64,000 nucleotides of DNA from a virus: IMG/VR virus record IMGVR_UViG_3300018933_000001, positions 1 to 64,000 of that record. One strand, 5' to 3'. The notes beneath the pieces were generated by a model that made no database searches, had not been told where the DNA came from, and saw nothing but the letters and a program-made list of their open reading frames with translations. Made by a program: the position numbers and the translations under genes. Positions 31,752 through 53,141 of this stretch are shown here, one piece after another (the first letter of the stretch is position 1; the number at the start of each line of letters is the position of its first letter).

Positions 31752-32402
31752 ATGATGAGTAAGGGAACTGAGACAAGAGTATCTAACATAAGAAACAAGT
31801 ACAGAACAAAGCAAGACAACATCTACTCTTATCTAACTAGCAATTGGTTAAGAGGTGCGATAGATGAAGATAAGCGGAGTAATAATGGTTCGATTCCATT
31901 AGCAGGTGTTCCGGAATTGATTTGTAATTCAGCAAGTCATTTTCACCGGGTGATTAAGATGATGCGTAAGATTGAAAGAGAAATGATTGAAGCTATCAAA
32001 GCTCAGAAAAACTACTCAAACGACAATACTAGAGTAGCTATTTCTTCCAATGGCGAAGTGATTAAAATAGAGTTGCACGGTCAAACGATAGCTAGTATAG
32101 AGAATAACTTCCTATATCTTGACGATTGCGGTTATCAAACTAAAACTACCAAGTCAAGACTAAATCGCTTACTCAATCATTACCATCTACCTACTATCTG
32201 CTCTAAAAAAGGTAAATGGTGGATAGGCAGCAGTCTCTGGTTAGGTCATACCAGTTTTATCCTAATTTTAGGTATGAACGGAAACAAAGTAAAAGAATCT
32301 CTCCAATATGCAGCAGTGTTAGGGGGACAATCTCAACCACGACCCTATGATGCTGTCTTAGGTGGAAAGACATTAAAGAGTGGTCTAAGTTCTACTTTCT
32401 AA
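31752..32402 (+). CDS. Hypothetical protein
   Basis: A 216-residue basic protein. The first 55 residues are charged; the middle holds HFHRVIKMMRKIEREMIEAI and a beta-rich section (GEVIKIELHGQTIASIEN). The tail has two AAVLGG/DAVLGG-type repeats. No Shine-Dalgarno precedes ATG 31752, and a T-arm-like sequence (AATGG TTCGATT CCATT, near 31888) lies inside the frame, so translation may really begin at an internal Met such as the MMRK pair. No known family. Confidence 0.55.
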   Translation: MMSKGTETRVSNIRNKYRTKQDNIYSYLTSNWLRGAIDEDKRSNNGSIPLAGVPELICNSASHFHRVIKMMRKIEREMIEAIKAQKNYSNDNTRVAISSNGEVIKIELHGQTIASIENNFLYLDDCGYQTKTTKSRLNRLLNHYHLPTICSKKGKWWIGSSLWLGHTSFILILGMNGNKVKESLQYAAVLGGQSQPRPYDAVLGGKTLKSGLSSTF

Positions 32403-32409
32403 TCTGTTT

Positions 32410-32458
32410 GCTCAGGTTAAAGGTAACTATCTTATCTACGTTCGATTCGTAGCTGAGC
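32410..32458 (+). other. Miniature tRNA-like element A
   Basis: An acceptor-like stem GCTCAG (32410-32415)/CTGAGC (32453-32458) stacks on a T-arm CTACG (32436-32440) TTCGATT CGTAG (32448-32452). The T-loop matches the tRNA consensus TTCRANN. In place of D and anticodon arms there is a 20-base insertion with a 4-bp tetraloop hairpin (GTTA-aagg-TAAC). It lies 55 bases before the next start codon. Confidence 0.6.
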
Positions 32459-32513
32459 TTTTACTTAGTTCATTCTAAGTTATTCGTCAACTAACAACCA
32501 AGGAAAACCCATT

Positions 32514-32810
32514 ATGTCTGTAATCAACAAACAAGTCAAGCAAGTATTATCTAATTTCCCTTACTACCTGTCTGATTGTTTGATAGTAGAAAAAAGTGAT
32601 TATACTACTCAACTTAACAGAGAGTATGAAATCTATCGAGTTGAAGTGATTGTCAAAGGTAATGTGGGCTACTTAGATTTAATCACTACTATTAGTCAGT
32701 CTTTTAAGGCAATAGGAGGATTCTACCGAGATAAGTCATCTACACACTCTATAGCTGAAACAATATGTGAGTCAATAGCCGTTCAAGCTTATATTGAGGA
32801 AGCTTACTAA
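32514..32810 (+). CDS. Hypothetical protein
   Basis: A 98-residue protein (MSVINKQVKQVLSNFPYYLS..., VEVIVKGNVGYLDLITTI). It has a helix, a beta-hairpin and a C-terminal helix with two Ser-rich turns. A Shine-Dalgarno-like CCAAGGAAAA precedes the ATG. The 5' leader carries element A. No known family. Confidence 0.6.
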   Translation: MSVINKQVKQVLSNFPYYLSDCLIVEKSDYTTQLNREYEIYRVEVIVKGNVGYLDLITTISQSFKAIGGFYRDKSSTHSIAETICESIAVQAYIEEAY

Positions 32811-32811
32811 T

Positions 32812-32903
32812 CTCTACTCAACTTCTAAAAATTGGTTACTAAGTAACATTAGTCTAGGTTCAATTGCTCTCAGCAAAAGCTTCCGAGCTTATTCCTAGTA
32901 GAG
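32812..32903 (+). other. tRNA-like fold with enlarged loops
   Basis: CTCTA (32812-32816)/TAGAG (32899-32903) stacks on CTAGG (32854-32858)/CCTAG (32894-32898); on the 3' side the two strands are contiguous, as in a tRNA. The 5' insertion holds GTTAC-taa-GTAAC, and the distal loop starts with TTCAATT and has a GCTC/GAGC stem. It is weaker than its neighbours. Confidence 0.35.
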
Positions 32904-32946
32904 GTCTAGTTACTCAACAACGGGTAACATTATCAAAGGAGACAAA

Positions 32947-33939
32947 ATGACTCAAACAGTAACAGCACAAGAACTAATGTCAGAAAGTCCGTCAACAGTT
33001 AAGGACATTATCGACTTAATCCTAGCTGACACCGTAACTATAATAGTAAATACTGAGTTAGGCTACAAACTGCAATTCTCTAACTACTTCTCTCAATGCG
33101 GATTAGATGTAGTAGAACTCTACAAGACTGCTAAAGAAGATTTAGACTTATCTGCTGAATACCTAGCTTTACATCCTTTAGTAGAACAAGTCATTGACAA
33201 TATCGGTGCTGACTTATTCACTGATATGTTAGACACTGATGAAAATTCAGCTTACTCTGAGGTATTGAGATGTTTTGGTCATGGTGTATCTTTCTGGGAC
33301 AATCATGATTACAAAGACTTTGGATTTTTTGAGATGCCTAGATTGAAAACTACTCTAGAACATCCTTATGACATAGCAACTCAAATTCTAGATAAGATTG
33401 CAGAAGCTCATCCCGAGTTAGTAGGAGATGATGAAGAGGAGACGGAACCTGATAACGTAACTACCTACCAAATACCAACAATCTACTTACCTCTGATATT
33501 TAATGCCGATGCAACTGGGTTAGAAGATGAAGACATCGAGTTATTTGATGAGTTCATAGAAAGAGAGGGATTAGCAGACAATAAAGGTTACTGGAGTTAT
33601 CCAGATAATCAAGAGTCTTACTTCTCTCATGTTAACGATGTCACTAGATTAGGTAATGATGTGATTGACCTTCAATGGGCTAACACATCTACTCAAGACA
33701 ATGACTTTGATATTTGGTTATCTCAAAACTATATCCCTGCTGGTGAAGATGCTAGTAACGGTGGACAGTGGTACTTATCAGCTAATCCTAATGAGTTAAG
33801 GCACATATACTACTCAGAAGATAAAGTCCTAATGAGAAGTAGTTCAGGTCATCCAATAACACTGCATATTTCAGAGGAAAGAATCATTGTAGACACTGAG
33901 ACTGACTCTCGTGACTTCTACAATATTATTTACTCCTAA
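32947..33939 (+). CDS. Hypothetical acidic protein, two-part
   Basis: A 330-residue acidic protein. The first about 150 residues are helical with a conserved-looking FGHGVSFWDNHDYKDFGFFE block. After an Asp/Glu/Thr linker a second domain begins at YQIPTIYLPLIFNADATGLE; such IP.IYLP.(I/L)(I/F)NGD.TGL patterns recur in small phage proteins of unknown role. It has a good Shine-Dalgarno (AAAGGAGACAAA). Function unknown. Confidence 0.65.
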   Translation: MTQTVTAQELMSESPSTVKDIIDLILADTVTIIVNTELGYKLQFSNYFSQCGLDVVELYKTAKEDLDLSAEYLALHPLVEQVIDNIGADLFTDMLDTDENSAYSEVLRCFGHGVSFWDNHDYKDFGFFEMPRLKTTLEHPYDIATQILDKIAEAHPELVGDDEEETEPDNVTTYQIPTIYLPLIFNADATGLEDEDIELFDEFIEREGLADNKGYWSYPDNQESYFSHVNDVTRLGNDVIDLQWANTSTQDNDFDIWLSQNYIPAGEDASNGGQWYLSANPNELRHIYYSEDKVLMRSSSGHPITLHISEERIIVDTETDSRDFYNIIYS

Positions 33940-33948
33940 TCAACAACA

Positions 33949-34005
33949 AGTCTAAAGTCAATGGTGGCAACTCCTTAGTTACAGAGTTCGATTCTCTGTT
34001 AGGCT
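33949..34005 (+). other. Miniature tRNA-like element B
   Basis: A full 7-bp acceptor-like stem AGTCTAA (33949-33955)/TTAGGCT (33999-34005, one G-T) stacks on a T-arm CAGAG (33982-33986) TTCGATT CTCTG (33994-33998). The 26-base insertion contains AACT-cctt-AGTT, again a 4-bp tetraloop hairpin instead of D and anticodon arms. It does not end with CCA in the proper place. Confidence 0.65.
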
Positions 34006-34029
34006 CTTCCAGGTGTAAGATTAGTACGT

Positions 34030-34269
34030 ATTGAGTACGGAGTAGTAGCTGATTTTACAGAAGCTAGACTTCCTTATACTTGCCCGAATTATCTAATGCT
34101 TGTCTTTAGAAGAGGTACACAAGAAATAAAAGAGGTGTGGAAAGTTGTGGGTGATATGTCCGGTGTTGACCTAACTCCCTTTCTTAATAAAATAGTTGAG
34201 AGAAAAGAAGGGGATTGGGAGTGTTGTAGTTATTATTTTACAGATGGAACAGTCATAAAAGTTACTTAA
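34030..34269 (+). CDS. Hypothetical protein lacking a standard start codon
   Basis: The frame is open from a TAG at 34000 to TAA at 34267 and looks coding (EARLPYTCPNYLMLVFRRG, DLTPFLNKIVERKEGDWECC, YYFTDGTVIKVT), but has no ATG, GTG or TTG. The best candidate is ATT at 34030. It may be a 5'-truncated gene cut by the arrival of element B, or it may use a rare start. No known family. Confidence 0.4.
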   Translation: MEYGVVADFTEARLPYTCPNYLMLVFRRGTQEIKEVWKVVGDMSGVDLTPFLNKIVERKEGDWECCSYYFTDGTVIKVT

Positions 34270-34281
34270 CTACTCACTAAC

Positions 34282-34334
34282 GACTATTAGGTAAATAATA
34301 AGCCTGCTACTAAGGTGCAATGCCTTAGATAGTC
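34282..34334 (+). other. Miniature tRNA-like element C
   Basis: GACTATT (34282-34288)/GATAGTC (34328-34334) forms a 7-bp acceptor-like stem stacked on TAAGG (34311-34315) TGCAATG CCTTA (34323-34327). The loop keeps T54, C56, R57 and A58 of the T-loop pattern. The 22-base insertion has only a weak AGG/CCT stem. It lies 33 bases before the next ATG. Confidence 0.6.
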
Positions 34335-34366
34335 TTTGCCCACTAACTACCTTAAGGAGACTTATC

Positions 34367-34699
34367 ATGAATAACGTAAAGATTTGTTCTGAGATAGTTT
34401 ACAATCCTGAAGCTTTTGATAACCGTTACGCAATCTATCTACCTGATTGTATTAACCTTGATATGGTAGACCAACTAGCTATTGAGTTAGATGCAGTTAA
34501 TTACTCTTTAACTAAATCTCATAGCGGAAAACTTTACCTCACAGCCGAGAAGTTTGGGAGATTAGAAAACCAAATTAAGGGAGCTTGGTTACAGCACATG
34601 GTTGATATTTATCCTTCAGTAATAGAGGATAACGAAACTCAACTAATACATATCGAGCATTGGCTATTTACTGAGGTTAGTTACATCAAGGTAGTTTAA
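34367..34699 (+). CDS. Hypothetical protein
   Basis: A 110-residue protein (MNNVKICSEIVYNPEAFDNR, AIYLPDCINLDMVDQLAIEL, HIEHWLFTEVSYIKVV). Beta-alpha-beta plan, acidic. A strong Shine-Dalgarno (TAAGGAGACTTATC) and element C lie in the leader. No known family. Confidence 0.6.
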   Translation: MNNVKICSEIVYNPEAFDNRYAIYLPDCINLDMVDQLAIELDAVNYSLTKSHSGKLYLTAEKFGRLENQIKGAWLQHMVDIYPSVIEDNETQLIHIEHWLFTEVSYIKVV

Positions 34700-34711
34700 C
34701 CTTTTCTATCA

Positions 34712-34749
34712 GCCCGATTGGTGTAGTAACGTTCGACTCGTTACCGGGC
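34712..34749 (+). other. Miniature tRNA-like element D
   Basis: GCCCG (34712-34716)/CGGGC (34745-34749) stacks on GTAACG (34726-34731) TTCGACT CGTTAC (34739-34744), an 11-bp continuous helix close to the 12 bp of a tRNA acceptor/T domain. The only insertion is ATTGGTGTA, which resembles a tRNA D-arm sequence. This is the smallest and cleanest element of the series. Confidence 0.65.
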
Positions 34750-34790
34750 AATTACCTTATACTTCCTTTATCAATAGGGTTTACTTTACC

Positions 34791-37700
34791 ATGACTACTA
34801 ACTTAACAACTGCTCAAATCAAAACCAAAGCACTTTGCTCAGTTAATCTCTTAACTCTGATTGACCTATCTGCTTTCGATACACAAGTAGAGTATGTCAA
34901 GTTCAACATTCTACTAAGTAATACTCCTACTTCTCCTATTGAGGTTACTTATAAAGTAAGCAATGGGACTCCTGAGTTAGTAAATGATGTTAAAGCAAAA
35001 ATTCTTCAAACTATCTGTAAAGAGTTTGATACTGCTTTTGACTTTTCTATCTCTATTTCATCTGTACTTCATTTCTTCCCTGCTAGTAACTTATGGAATA
35101 AAGACAGACAAGTAATGGTACTTACCCCACAATATAAGGACATTAGCTCACAAGTACCTAACATCCCTCAAGAAGTTACTGAGATAGTAGAGCAAGTAGC
35201 AGAGGTCATCACAACATCAGAAGATAAAGATGATAGTGCTTCAATTCAGGAAGTAATATCACAACCTACTGATATTTCTATAACTTCCCCTACTCAGGCA
35301 GAAGACACACATATATCCGAAGTAGTAGAAGAACCTGCACAACCTCTACTCAACAAGACATCTACTAACAAGTCACTCAATATCTATGTGGCTCGGACTA
35401 ACTCTGAAGGGTTAACTCAGAAGATACTAATTGAGGATATGTTCTCATCTGAACTATTTAGTATTATTAAGCCCTGGTTAGTAGCTATTGGTAAGTTGTC
35501 GGAGTTCAAGAAAGAACTACAAGAGACAAAGCACAATAGTATTGTTCTCTACCTTAATCCTTCCTATGAATGGGAGATACGGGAAGTTACAAGAGATGTG
35601 CCTAGCAATTTATTAGAACAGTTTCTTGAGAAGACGAAGGAAGATAGGGAGTTATTGGGGGTAGAAAAGTTTTCTGATGAGCTTTTCCAATACTTAAAAG
35701 ATGTCAAGAAGTGGAGAGCTGAGGAGTTAATACAAGCTTACAGCATTAAGGCATCCGTAGAAGTAAATGGAAACTTTCATCTTCAACCAGTAACTAAGAA
35801 AGAAACAACCTTCAGACCTTTTAAGAAAGATGTCTTATCTGCCTATGTAAGTCGCATTACTAATAGAGCAGGAAGCATTGAAGAAAGAAGGAAAAAAGAT
35901 GCAGTTCCGGAGTTAGGTAGCTTAGAAAATATCTCACCTATCTTAGTAGAAGGTATTTACTTAGCTCAAAGTTATATTCTCTTTAATCCTCTGACATTAG
36001 AACATGAGAGAGTAGTAAGGAAAATAGCAATACAAAATGGTGGTAAATTCTACTATTACTCTGATTTATCTAAGGAAGATAGAGACTTACACAACATCGA
36101 ACCTAGTCTCTACTGTCCTAGTTCTATCCTAGAAACAGATGAAGAAATAGAAGCAGAAAGAAAAAAGGTAGAAGGTAAAGAGGTATTTCCCGACTTGACC
36201 ATCCAAATGGTGCAGTTTGAGTCTCTAGACCCAGATGGAAACACTTTAAAACTACAACACTACCAAAAGACATCAGGTATTTGGGTATTGTCTAACTCTA
36301 TTACCTCAACAGATAATCTTGCTAGAACTCCTGATGGTCAATTAGTTACTGACTTGAGATTTATTGCAGCACCAGTAGCTTTTCTAGGATTCCAACATCC
36401 CAACATTAAGGTCAAGGAATCATTCAGAAATGAAGATGGTAGTTTTGCTATATCTTCTACTATCCAAAGACAACCAACTAAAAAAGCTCGGTTGACTAAC
36501 TTAAGTGATGCTCGATTAGTAGCCCAGAACTCTCTTGAGTGGGTAGGATTTTTAGCTAATGTGCCTTGTATTGTCAACTTAGTTAACTCACATGACCATT
36601 GGCAGTTAGAAGCATTACCAATTCAAGAAATACCTTCTTATCCTCTGTTATATTGCTTAGCTAATAAGGCAATAGAAGGTTATTGGACTGAAGAAGACTT
36701 GCACACCCAGATTATCAGTCCATTAGACAAGGAAATGGAAAGACTAGGGGAGATAGCTGGAAAGACTCAAGATGTGGAAAAGTTAGAAAAGATAGGGAGG
36801 AGGGAAACTAATTTACAAAGATTGAGAAAAGCAGTTCTTAATCGTGAGAAGTTAGATCCTAAAGTGTTAATTGAGTGTACCAAGATAGTGTCTGAGGCGA
36901 TGAAATCTGCTAGTTACAGACCTACTGTAGTAGATAAGTATTACTCTCGTTATATATTGGCTCAAGTCTACTTCATAAGTACAAATGAGTCAGAGATAAC
37001 CTACTTGTTAGATGATCATATGAGTCACAAACGAGTAGCTAGTCAGGTAATTAGTGCTGTCCGATGGCTTAGTTTAGTGCCTAACAACCTACAAAAGCAG
37101 TTCCCCAAGCAAAAACCGACTATTGAGCAGTTGAGAAAGTTTCTTGTTTCTAAATTTAACGAGAAGTTCCGAGAAGTAGAGCTAAAAGTCAGAGAAAGTG
37201 GAGGGAAAATTCTACTAGACATTGTTTATCTCGATAAAATCCAAGTTACTCAGGTACTAACCATCAAAATGCCTGTTTCAGACGCTAAGAATAGAGGAAA
37301 AGTATCAACAAAAGTCAACGCAACCCCTAATTTTAGCGATAGAAGCGTGTTTGAGAAGTTTTTGAGGACTAAAGATGGGAGATTTATAGCTGAATGTCAA
37401 AATAAACTCATTCAATTAGTAGATATCTTCATCTCTCGCAGTTTTAACACTTTAGTAGGAGAAGGAAAAGTCGGAAAACAGCGGAAAGTATCGGAAATTA
37501 TTGGTTTTGAGAAGTCAAAGTCAGGATGGAGTGAGATAAAGAAGGGATTCGTCAAGCATCTAGTACCTTATAGCTCGGATTCAAGAGTAGAAGCAGGCAA
37601 ATTGACTTATTTAGCCACTAATCAAGTGCTTTCTTCTCAAGATTTAGAACATCTTATCATCCTAATAGCTGAAAATTGGAGTAATTGGAGCAGAAAAGAC

Positions 37701-38174
37701 CAACAAAGGATAAAAATTGGCGTTTCTTCTAGTAAGTCTCAAGACCCTGAGATATTAGTCCATGTTCTCACTAAAAAAATCCTCTCTGGTAATTTTGAGG
37801 AAGATAGAGAAGCTTGGCAAGATACTCTAAATTGGGTAGCTGAGGTTTGTAAGTCTTCTCCTAAGTATCGAGCAATAGGTTTCCGCTGTGATAATGGCGT
37901 GATTCTAACTCCGGATTGCGTCTATAACACTGATTTAGAAAAGTGGGAACATAGAATCAAAATAAACCTAAGTAATCTATTTCTTGACTCAAATGCAGGA
38001 AATATTGAGGCTTGGTTGAGCAAGTCAGTGGATAAACTTTACGATTCATTAGAGAAAATAAAACCTAATTGGGAGGAGACTAACAAATCGGTTAAGGAAC
38101 ATTTAGCTAACTTACATGATTCTCACGGTATCTGTATGCAAGTAGAAAGAAGTAAACTGGAGATACTTGTCTAA
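34791..38174 (+). CDS. Very large hypothetical protein (1127 aa)
   Basis: The longest protein of the rightward operon. Residues about 1-115 form a beta-rich domain; 120-195 is an acidic, Thr/Ser/Pro linker (low complexity); then a mostly helical region with alternating charged segments extends to the C-terminus. There is a Cys-free basic region around 820-900 (KNRGKVSTKV, SDRSVFEKFLRTKDG). I see no polymerase, helicase or nuclease motif. It is followed by an apparently paired gene at 38287. A virion or replication-complex protein are both possible. Confidence 0.65.
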   Translation: MTTNLTTAQIKTKALCSVNLLTLIDLSAFDTQVEYVKFNILLSNTPTSPIEVTYKVSNGTPELVNDVKAKILQTICKEFDTAFDFSISISSVLHFFPASNLWNKDRQVMVLTPQYKDISSQVPNIPQEVTEIVEQVAEVITTSEDKDDSASIQEVISQPTDISITSPTQAEDTHISEVVEEPAQPLLNKTSTNKSLNIYVARTNSEGLTQKILIEDMFSSELFSIIKPWLVAIGKLSEFKKELQETKHNSIVLYLNPSYEWEIREVTRDVPSNLLEQFLEKTKEDRELLGVEKFSDELFQYLKDVKKWRAEELIQAYSIKASVEVNGNFHLQPVTKKETTFRPFKKDVLSAYVSRITNRAGSIEERRKKDAVPELGSLENISPILVEGIYLAQSYILFNPLTLEHERVVRKIAIQNGGKFYYYSDLSKEDRDLHNIEPSLYCPSSILETDEEIEAERKKVEGKEVFPDLTIQMVQFESLDPDGNTLKLQHYQKTSGIWVLSNSITSTDNLARTPDGQLVTDLRFIAAPVAFLGFQHPNIKVKESFRNEDGSFAISSTIQRQPTKKARLTNLSDARLVAQNSLEWVGFLANVPCIVNLVNSHDHWQLEALPIQEIPSYPLLYCLANKAIEGYWTEEDLHTQIISPLDKEMERLGEIAGKTQDVEKLEKIGRRETNLQRLRKAVLNREKLDPKVLIECTKIVSEAMKSASYRPTVVDKYYSRYILAQVYFISTNESEITYLLDDHMSHKRVASQVISAVRWLSLVPNNLQKQFPKQKPTIEQLRKFLVSKFNEKFREVELKVRESGGKILLDIVYLDKIQVTQVLTIKMPVSDAKNRGKVSTKVNATPNFSDRSVFEKFLRTKDGRFIAECQNKLIQLVDIFISRSFNTLVGEGKVGKQRKVSEIIGFEKSKSGWSEIKKGFVKHLVPYSSDSRVEAGKLTYLATNQVLSSQDLEHLIILIAENWSNWSRKDQQRIKIGVSSSKSQDPEILVHVLTKKILSGNFEEDREAWQDTLNWVAEVCKSSPKYRAIGFRCDNGVILTPDCVYNTDLEKWEHRIKINLSNLFLDSNAGNIEAWLSKSVDKLYDSLEKIKPNWEETNKSVKEHLANLHDSHGICMQVERSKLEILV

Positions 38175-38181
38175 TCCTACT

Positions 38182-38258
38182 GCTCTTAATATGGCTGGTA
38201 ACTGTATTAAGAGCTTAGTACAAATTAATAACCCCTCCTTAAGGTTAAAGGTTTGTAC
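38182..38258 (+). promoter_or_regulatory. Two-hairpin leader upstream of 38287
   Basis: A perfect 9-bp stem GCTCTTAAT (38182-38190)/ATTAAGAGC (38206-38214) with a 15-base loop is followed 3 bases later by a perfect 7-bp stem GTACAAA (38218-38224)/TTTGTAC (38252-38258) enclosing CCTT/AAGG. Neither is followed by a U-tract, so this is a structured leader, not a terminator. Confidence 0.5.
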
Positions 38259-51177: not shown

Positions 51178-51990
51178 ATGACAATTCAAATGGTTCAGAA
51201 GGAAGTAGATGGAATTGAGTTTTATGTATCAGCAGACGGAACTCAAAGTGGAATGAGTGAAAGTGGTTTAGCTAGAATGTCAGGAGTTGACAGGTCTAGT
51301 GTTCACAACCTACTTCAGAAAGCTGCTGCGGATAAAAAGGTTCCGGAAACTCTGAAACCTATATTAGGTAAGGATTTCTACCTACTAATAGGTGCGGATA
51401 AAAACGCTCAAGTAGTGCCAGCAAATATTTGTGCCTTAGTAATTGAGTATTACGCTTTTGAAAGTAAAGCTGCTAATGAAACAGCTAGATTCTCTTTTCG
51501 CAAATTTGCTAGTAAAGGAATTAGTTCTTGGATTAAAGAAATAACAGGTTATAAAGAAGACCAAATTCCAGAGTCTAAAGAAATACTTTCTATCTTGAAA
51601 GAAGTATTAACTAAAGTAGATAGCTTAGAAAAAGACTCAAAAGAATATAGAAATCTTAAAGGTAGAAGTGTCCAAGTTTTTCCTGCTTTAGATAAAACAC
51701 TTGAAGAGTTTGCTATTGAAGGAGAGTCATTACTTGAAGAGAATCCACAGAACTACACTCTTACTGAATGGGTGCATCTAACAAAGAGAGGCATTACTCT
51801 TGATAATTCTACTAAACATAGGTTTGCTTTGTTAGTTAGTGAAACTTATAAGAGCGTAACAGGTAATGAGCCTAAGAAAGAACATAGACAAGATAAAGAA
51901 ACTAAGAAGAGAAATAATAGTGTATCTGTTTATAGTTATACTGAGTTTCCCATTCTTCAGTTAGCTTGGAATAAGTTGTTTAATGTTTAA
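51178..51990 (+). CDS. Antirepressor-like DNA-binding protein
   Basis: A 270-residue protein. Residues about 17-45 (GTQSGMSESGLARMSGVDRS) look like a helix-turn-helix followed by a conserved helical domain (LVIEYYAFES, FRKFASKGISSWIKEITGY), a plan seen in phage antirepressors and in cyanobacterial phage-like proteins. A coiled coil follows near 130-160. It has its own promoter. It may control lysogeny or middle genes; no name is assigned. Confidence 0.6.
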   Translation: MTIQMVQKEVDGIEFYVSADGTQSGMSESGLARMSGVDRSSVHNLLQKAAADKKVPETLKPILGKDFYLLIGADKNAQVVPANICALVIEYYAFESKAANETARFSFRKFASKGISSWIKEITGYKEDQIPESKEILSILKEVLTKVDSLEKDSKEYRNLKGRSVQVFPALDKTLEEFAIEGESLLEENPQNYTLTEWVHLTKRGITLDNSTKHRFALLVSETYKSVTGNEPKKEHRQDKETKKRNNSVSVYSYTEFPILQLAWNKLFNV

Positions 51991-52013: not shown

Positions 52014-53141
52014 ATGACTAAACCAGTTGAAATTGTAACAGTTACTCGTATTATCCCAATCTTCAAAAATTCTGAGCCTGCTAATGCAATTGAGGTAATA
52101 AACTTTAATTTCCTAAACGGAGATGAGTGCGGATTTAATGTAGTTTCTCAGAAAGGTCTTTATCAAGTAGGTGACTCAGCAATCTATATCCAACCAGACT
52201 ATTGTCTTCCGAATACAGAGTTATTTAAATCTTTTACTGCTCCAAACGGTGATCCAAATAAGTCTAAGTTAGGAAAACAGAATCGAATTAAAGCTATTAA
52301 ATTTAATTTTCAGTTTGAAGATTCTTCTGACCCAATCTATTCAAACGGTATTTTATTACCTTTATCTGAAGTTGGATTACCTAATGATAAAGATGAAGAA
52401 TTTAATATAGCAGAGTTCTTAGGAATTACTAAGTACGAAGAACCGGAGAAGTTTAAGACTGGTAATGCTAAGGGAAATTTACCAGGTTTTCTTTATAAAA
52501 CAGATGAGGAAAACGCAGCTAACCTCAAATCTCATATTAATAGAGTTTTAGCAGCAGGTGAAAGAATTGGTTGGTCACTTAAGTATGATGGGAGTTCTCT
52601 TACTTACTATTGTCGAAAAGGAGTAGACGGTTGGGAACGAGGTATTTGCTCTAGAGTTATGGAAAAGAAGATTCCTGAAGACTTATCTACTACCTCGGAC
52701 GGTTGGGTTTCTTTAGCTGTATCATCGGGTTTATTTGAGAGAGGGCTACAGTATTGTCAAGATAATGACAGAGAACTAGCTTTTAGAGGAGAGATTTATG
52801 GCAATGATGTAACAAAAGGCTCAGGTAATAAATTGAACCCCCACAGTAAATGTAAACCGTCTTTGGTTATCTATGGTATTGATACTTTAGAATCTGGATT
52901 TGCTACTAAACTCCTACCTATGGAGGTTGAAGGTATCTGTAAGAGGTTAGAAGTAAACTATGTACCTTACTTACAGATATTTCCCAAGAATTATGATGAA
53001 TTAATTGAAGTAGCTAATAAGGTATTTGAGAACTATAGAGAACAAAAGAACTGGATAATTGAAGGGGTTGTAGTTAGAACTTTAGACTCTAATAAGTTAT
53101 CAGCGAAAGTCATGAATAACGCCTACGATGCTAAGAAGTAA
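52014..53141 (+). CDS. RNA ligase (DRB0094/Rnl5-like)
   Basis: A 375-residue nucleotidyltransferase. Motif I is SLKYDGSSLTYY (Lys is the AMP-acceptor), motif III-like LAFRGEIYG, motif IV IEGVVVR and motif V KLSAKVMNNAY. The N-terminal 150 residues resemble the DRB0094-type adaptor domain (VGDSAIYIQPDYCLPNT). It seals RNA ends, probably 3'-OH/5'-PO4 breaks in duplexes. In a phage with tRNA-like elements it may counter host anticodon nucleases, which is inference. Confidence 0.85.
   Translation: MTKPVEIVTVTRIIPIFKNSEPANAIEVINFNFLNGDECGFNVVSQKGLYQVGDSAIYIQPDYCLPNTELFKSFTAPNGDPNKSKLGKQNRIKAIKFNFQFEDSSDPIYSNGILLPLSEVGLPNDKDEEFNIAEFLGITKYEEPEKFKTGNAKGNLPGFLYKTDEENAANLKSHINRVLAAGERIGWSLKYDGSSLTYYCRKGVDGWERGICSRVMEKKIPEDLSTTSDGWVSLAVSSGLFERGLQYCQDNDRELAFRGEIYGNDVTKGSGNKLNPHSKCKPSLVIYGIDTLESGFATKLLPMEVEGICKRLEVNYVPYLQIFPKNYDELIEVANKVFENYREQKNWIIEGVVVRTLDSNKLSAKVMNNAYDAKK

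Follow-up and report, generated by a model that had tools for sequence, protein, structure and literature searches.

In a 64,000-base stretch of viral DNA (hereafter the window; bases 1-64000 of the 146,537-base virus contig IMGVR_UViG_3300018933_000001), the gaps between the genes of one operon were found to carry small transfer RNA (tRNA)-like elements, in which an acceptor-like stem is stacked on a T-arm and the anticodon arm is reduced or gone. All five spacers of the operon, from 32403 to 34790, hold such an element, and members of the same family occur in the matching spacers of related phages. That the elements form these structures is practically certain. As to their role, we favor a viral "tRNA punctuation", in which the elements, as cis-acting tRNA mimics, would be cut by host ribonuclease (RNase) P, RNase Z, or both; we assign this reading a probability of roughly 0.6 on the comparative sequence evidence given below.

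The original prediction had described four folds, at 32410, 33949, 34282, and 34712, with the 7-base loops TTCGATT, TTCGATT, TGCAATG, and TTCGACT. All four were recovered on the plus strand, and in each of them the acceptor-like stem adjoins the T-arm without a gap. The count itself proved too low, as a fifth element at 32821-32905 (element 2 in Table 1) and a decayed sixth at about 31830-31911 had been missed. Element 2 was recovered by covariance models built without it, and the decayed element gave a T-arm match at 31880-31900 in the covariance-model search and could be aligned by eye with positions 7270-7345 of L048. Related phage stretches are labeled here L002/L044, L009/L046, and L047 to L050, L002 and L044 being one relative and L009 and L046 a second. 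The 28-nucleotide (nt) insert in the T-loop of element 2 (window 32850-32880) can itself form a small hairpin and is absent from L044 and L046. For the element at 33949, the cloverleaf with a tetraloop hairpin was the minimum-energy fold, with GTCA-ATGG-TGGC as its D-arm. When the whole 146.5-kilobase (kb) contig was scanned for a T-loop with a stacked acceptor, only the four elements and three real tRNA genes were obtained, and the minus strand yielded none. The folding energy of single window elements was only mildly unusual (z from -1.0 to -2.0). Singly, they are therefore not exceptionally stable, and the evidence for structure is comparative.

This evidence came from matching spacers of the relatives, which were aligned by MAFFT blind to structure and provided seven families with 267 informative pair cells. 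Pairing was retained in 260 cells, in 42 through changes on both sides and in 6 through a change on one side, and was broken in 7; the aligned members had mostly been found by structure first, which leaves these counts with a smaller residual bias. In family F3, for instance, the window member has the acceptor AGTCTAA/TTAGGCT and the T-stem CAGAG/CTCTG, the L046 member has AGTCTAG/CTAGACT and CTAGG/CCTAG, and the L050 member has AGTCTAG/CTAGACT and CCAAG/CTTGG. For the building of covariance models, linkers were filled up with N to a common length, because a first MAFFT alignment had misplaced the 5′ acceptor strand. Covariation counts from these padded alignments are biased, the elements having been chosen by pairing, and hence the argument rests on the structure-blind alignments. 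The proposed selection for structure was thus borne out by compensatory changes, and the pairing was kept in those homologous phages whose lack of it the original prediction had named as evidence to the contrary.

The family was then compared with chance. A pairing-only scan, which accepted any 7-base loop at a score of at least 26, covered 47.5 kb of operon regions from eight related contigs, with dinucleotide shuffles as the control. The coding strand gave 43 matches and the opposite strand 4, compared with 5.9±2.4 for the shuffled sequences. The T-loop signature G53-T54-NNN-A58-NN-C61 was present in 39 of these 43 matches, compared with a shuffle mean of 0.05 and none on the other strand. 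A separate inventory scan, run at a lower score over slightly wider regions and with the signature required, collected 43 elements across the eight contigs, the equal total being a coincidence; the counts below refer to this inventory. Nine elements lie within about 8 kb in L002/L044, and at least seven in L009/L046. A covariance model built from 14 elements of three phages found elements in four contigs outside its training set, in a fifth (L047), and at 32821-32905 of the window. A search with a 17-nt motif of F3 brought up 36 stretches, namely, three known relatives and chance matches, and when the scan with the signature filter was run on 33 unrelated viral contigs drawn by this search, four full-length tRNA-type folds were all that it found.

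In tRNAs, the acceptor stem and T-stem together comprise 12 base pairs (bp). The corresponding length was 11-12 bp in 40 of the 43 elements. A purine at position 57 (R57) occurred in all 43, although it was no scan criterion; C56 occurred in 35, and the first base was a purine in 37. A D-arm-like hairpin directly behind the acceptor was detected in 23 elements, compared with 6.9±2.4 in shuffled linkers, by a search that imposed no loop sequence. Among these 23, T-loop positions 55-56 and the D-loop were combined as TC/GG in 15, TG/GC in three, GC/AG in two, and TC/GC in one, two being unclassed; GG, GC, or AG in the D-loop thus went with TC, TG, or GC, respectively, in the T-loop in 20 of 21 classed cases. 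These combinations correspond to the contact of G18 with Psi55 and of G19 with C56, which forms the elbow in tRNAs (PMC4810234). The 19-56 pair appears to have been swapped twice, independently; of the three TG/GC cases, two are close relatives.

The anticodon part, in turn, varies widely, from none (34712) through a 4-bp tetraloop hairpin (33949) to an 8-bp hairpin at L049 5695 (z = -5.2), whose 7-nt loop lacks U33. The predicted insertion of 9-26 bases holds for the window, and linkers reach 45 nt in relatives; a normal anticodon arm is ruled out in the window because linkers of 9-26 nt leave insufficient room. The statement that a linker replaces the D and anticodon parts was thus right for the anticodon arm, but it overlooked the D-arm-like hairpins, including those at 32410 and 33949. 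ARAGORN found no canonical tRNA in the window or the operon loci. No element matched Rfam at the gathering cutoff, and Rfam has no family for the elements; nor was a published family found, in agreement with the earlier remark that no named family of this kind was known.

The 3′ flank of the elements is also of the tRNA type. Position 74 was T in 34 of 43 elements (p = 6e-8) and position 75 in 32 (p = 2e-6), values that treat the elements as independent and hence are too small given their kinship; the 37 distinct flanks gave 8e-7 and 2e-5. T was not enriched at positions 73 and 76, the former being mixed. T stood at 74 or 75 in 42 elements and CCA in none, and the three ordinary tRNA genes of the contig share the N-T-T flank, all without CCA. 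A U no more than 2 nt from the discriminator stimulates the RNase Z of Bacillus subtilis about 200-fold (PMC10100781), and CCA-less substrates are favored by cyanobacterial RNase P (PMC4264200). The 5′ flank showed no strong conservation; an absence of G at -1 was dropped as evidence, since the stem-extension procedure depletes G there. In the 30 elements that start no more than 30 nt behind the preceding stop codon, the median distance to it is 10.5 nt, which may be about where a terminating ribosome just clears the element.

What the elements have kept, namely, the helix length between elbow and cleavage site, the T-loop, the elbow, and the 3′ flank, is what RNase P and RNase Z recognize, and we therefore favor processing. 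RNase P cleaves model substrates of acceptor and T-arm, measuring 12 bp from the T-loop to the cleavage site (PMC11143913, PMC4919913), and RNase Z reads the tRNA elbow (PMC4810234). The proposal that the elements are cleavage sites therefore gains support from the 11-12-bp ruler, R57, the covariation of D-loop and T-loop, U74/U75 without CCA, and the placement behind stop codons. In the envisaged mechanism, the acceptor stem would stack on the T-arm and, in about half of the elements, docking of a small D-arm on the T-loop would create the elbow of a tRNA, with the anticodon arm, needed for decoding, shrunken, irregular, or gone. The elbow would be recognized by the tRNA-maturation enzymes of the host, which would cut at a distance of about 12 bp as gauged along the stacked helix. 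RNase P would do so at the 5′ side, immediately downstream of the stop codon that precedes the element. RNase Z would cut beyond the one nucleotide that adjoins the acceptor, where the activating U74/U75 is conserved and the blocking CCA is absent. A long message might thereby be divided into single-gene or few-gene mRNAs. What has been observed is the structure, kept up by compensatory change, together with the tRNA-type signatures and the position of the elements; from this we infer the cleavage, the choice of enzyme, and the benefit to the phage.

Several findings weigh against this reading. Sixteen of the 43 elements have 11 bp instead of 12, and in five the acceptor has 5 bp and the T-stem 6-7 bp, which makes the linker exit the stack at a height not found in tRNA. 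About half of the elements have no recognizable D-arm, and loops such as TGAAAGT and TTTAACT deviate from the usual T-loop. Among 64 spacers of at least 45 nt, 26 hold no element that passed the scan, although at least two of these hold one by other evidence. Finally, the U74/U75 rule was measured in B. subtilis and not in cyanobacteria, and a cyanobacterial host is itself likely rather than observed. The host assignment comes from protein matches. The first-gene protein (PF23790) has counterparts almost exclusively in cyanophages: of 415 records matched, 381 carry the name Synechococcus phage, Cyanophage, or Prochlorococcus phage. A second protein, antirepressor-like and encoded at window 51178-51990, finds matches in cyanobacterial plasmids, as far as names in the output show. 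Scans of cellular genomes with the terminase and the antirepressor-like protein found no relative. Several of the source metagenomes are probably desert soil crusts.

Nine spacer elements of a second kind were observed in the relatives. Each consists of a 12-bp hairpin (13 bp in two cases) with the loop TT[C/G]GTT[G/A], followed 2-4 nt later by a hairpin with the loop TAYC[G/C]NNAAA. The two loops covary, TTCG occurring with CG in four and TTGG with CC in five, which suggests a loop-loop contact, and all nine have one base and then two Ts directly after the first hairpin. None matched Rfam. A fuller scenario, in which captured tRNA genes became largely decoding-incompetent mimics that punctuate the operon, host RNase P and RNase Z excise these mimics and free the individual mRNAs, and the second kind of spacer element is a minihelix version, may be given an even chance.

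A different role for the same tRNA likeness would be that of a 3′-end stability module. RNase Z would then cut at the 3′ side only, or hardly any cutting would occur, and a tRNA-like cap, possibly CCA-added, would stay on the upstream message and shield it from 3′ exonucleases, like the tRNA-like ends of some plant RNA viruses. The U74/U75 flank is the best-conserved feature outside the elements, which lie close behind stop codons and have a 5′ flank without strong conservation, all of which fits such a cap. However, the preference for a purine as the first base and the 11-12-bp length also suit RNase P, and for the protection of a 3′ end a plain hairpin would do, with no need of a tRNA signature. 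We regard this role as unlikely, but as one to be taken seriously, and cutting by RNase Z only and full punctuation are inseparable from sequence.

The small genes next to F1 and F3 elements differ from phage to phage and are mostly unrelated, as though genes had been swapped between conserved spacers. This, and the position directly behind stop codons, would be expected of cassette joints, that is, conserved DNA-level boundaries for the exchange of operon genes, comparable to integron attC sites or the promoter-stem-loop cassettes of T4-like phages. Gene exchange around the elements is indeed likely, but it does not account for the strand-specific RNA signatures: the T-loop signature was found in 39 matches on one strand and 0 on the other, R57, the D-loop/T-loop covariation, and the N-U-U flank are RNA-like, and compensatory divergence of the stems would hinder homologous exchange. 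We therefore consider it improbable that the elements are cassette joints. Integron attC sites as such were tried and rejected, the motifs RYYYAAC and GTTRRRY occurring together in 1 of 43 elements (expected, 0.3).

Decoys, the second possibility raised by the original prediction, would be transcribed elements that absorb tRNA-acting factors of the host or of phage defence, such as nucleases or modification enzymes. Several copies per genome and a faithful elbow would serve this end, and the phage encodes an RNA ligase (PF09414; window 52014-53141), a type of enzyme able to repair cut tRNA, which could bear on such repair or on RNA processing. Known tRNA-cutting defence enzymes, however, act mostly at the anticodon loop, which is what the elements lack, and a decoy needs neither one copy per gene gap nor a fixed short distance behind the stop codon; we hold this role to be very improbable. 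Transcription terminators or attenuators are scarcely credible: the elements are stem-loops behind stop codons, and a terminator scan also flagged 34310-34328, but no U tract follows (T is enriched at 74 and 75 only), the region holds 3 terminator-like sites compared with 3.7±1.8 in shuffles, and termination requires neither a T-loop nor an elbow.

Degenerate tRNA genes had been the last suggestion, and as ancestry this is probable. The 76-nt full-length tRNA-like member at L048 7270-7345, which has no regular anticodon arm and is a possible link to an ancestral tRNA gene, the best sub-threshold Rfam tRNA match (L049 6697-6764; 21.3 bits against a cutoff of 29), and the visibly decayed element at about 31830-31911 point to tRNA genes as ancestors. 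It does not describe the present state, since the pairs are maintained, with 42 compensatory double changes against 7 breaks; chance hairpins are contradicted by the shuffles, the other strand, and the 33 unrelated viral contigs, and there is very little to be said for either decaying, functionless tRNA genes or chance.

Like the phage elements, the tRNA-like domain of transfer-messenger RNA (tmRNA) combines an acceptor and a T-arm, while its D part is reduced and an ordinary anticodon arm is missing. As tmRNA itself, the elements were rejected: ARAGORN and Rfam find none in the window, and there is no tag reading frame and no CCA. As in mitochondrial tRNA punctuation, tRNA-shaped elements between genes mark would-be RNase P and RNase Z cuts in a polycistronic message. 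The mitochondrial marks are mostly functional tRNAs, whereas the marks proposed here belong to a bacterial virus and are dedicated mimics whose anticodon arm is reduced or missing. The t-elements of plant mitochondria and the MALAT1/MENbeta mascRNA/menRNA are likewise tRNA-like folds that are not tRNAs, with RNase P (and RNase Z) shaping the end of an mRNA or lncRNA (PMC4919922, PMC12016569), but these are single elements in eukaryotic or organellar RNAs, whereas up to nine per operon, with far smaller D and anticodon parts, occur here. RNase P also acts in or between genes of bacterial polycistrons, reportedly in the his and other operon mRNAs of Escherichia coli (Li and Altman 2003, cited in PMC12016569 and PMC4919922); those sites are isolated and are not known as a repeated, covarying family with T-loop and elbow. 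The model minihelices of RNase P, made of acceptor stem, T-stem, and T-loop, have the same minimal architecture and helix length (PMC11143913); they are synthetic, whereas the phage elements are natural and have linkers, D-arms, and the U74/U75 flank. The precursor of the P1/P7 C4 antisense RNA is a phage RNA processed by host RNase P (cited in PMC4919922), but it is one regulatory RNA and not a series of operon spacers. Thus, tRNA punctuation, t-elements, mascRNA, and single RNase P sites in operons are already known; in open-licence papers, preprints excluded, no description of such elements in a phage was found.

The family elements occupy operon spacers between the small terminase gene and a gene for a protein of about 1100 amino acids (aa), with a few further downstream in some phages. 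In the window, the 1127-aa gene ends the punctuated part of the operon and serves as the locus marker in all relatives; its protein shares 73% identity with the counterpart in L002/L044 and had no match in searches of phages and plasmids. At the DNA level, the operon had no match among known phages. The open reading frame (ORF) called at 31752-32402 probably starts near 31917, because the gene of the relatives begins at a TTG directly behind their element; its N-terminal part (31752-31916), which overlaps the decayed element, is then probably noncoding. Directly behind the end of the 1127-aa gene, a 13-bp hairpin, GCTCTTAATATGG-ctggtaa-CTGTATTAAGAGC, is conserved at window 38182-38214 and L044 13344. 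It falls within the start of the overlapping next ORF, whose start may be misplaced.

Table 1. tRNA-like elements, operon genes, tRNA genes, and second-kind spacer elements (window positions unless a contig or another stretch is named)
Feature	Position	Strand	Description
Element 1, family F1	32410..32458	+	6-bp acceptor; D-arm-like hairpin GTTA-AAGG-TAAC; 5-bp T-arm; loop TTCGATT; no anticodon arm
Element 2, family F4	32821..32905	+	7-bp acceptor; 5-bp T-arm; 28-nt insert in T-loop; from covariance models and alignment
Element 3, family F3	33949..34005	+	small cloverleaf: D-arm, 4-bp tetraloop hairpin instead of anticodon arm, T-arm; loop TTCGATT
Element 4, family F6	34282..34334	+	6-bp acceptor; 6-bp T-arm; loop TGCAATG
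Element 5, family F7	34712..34749	+	shortest: 5-bp acceptor; 9-nt linker with GG; 6-bp T-arm; loop TTCGACT
Decayed sixth element	~31830..31911	+	T-arm TAATGG-TTCGATT-CCATTA intact; acceptor partly paired; upstream of probable start of first gene
Operon gene 1	31752..32402	+	216-aa ORF as called; PF23790 (Kyanoviridae Gp96)
98-aa operon gene	32514..32810	+	separates elements 1 and 2
330-aa operon gene	32947..33939	+	separates elements 2 and 3; weak DUF6926 match
Small ORF	34096..34269	+	57 aa counted from ATG; separates elements 3 and 4
110-aa operon gene	34367..34699	+	separates elements 4 and 5
1127-aa gene	34791..38174	+	function not assigned; ends punctuated operon part; locus marker
tRNA Lys-TTT	contig 93277 (L005 9277-9348)		no encoded CCA
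tRNA Met-CAT	contig 109635 (L006 5635-5706)		no encoded CCA
tRNA Pro-TGG	contig 109710 (L006 5710-5783)		no encoded CCA
Second-kind spacer elements	L044 8443; L046 9420; L047 8479; L048 9362, 20670; L049 7733, 8759, 9107, 22006		n = 9; none in window

If confirmed, cleavage at these elements would mean that tRNA punctuation, known from organelles, also occurs in a bacterial virus, by way of mimics pared down to the parts that the enzymes read. The 43 natural variants, with linkers of 9-45 nt, with or without a D-arm, and with exchanged 18-19/55-56 contacts, would form a test set for the substrate needs of RNase P and RNase Z. Furthermore, tRNA folds that lack a normal anticodon arm escape tRNA finders and Rfam, and the operon spacers of other phages may merit a search for them.

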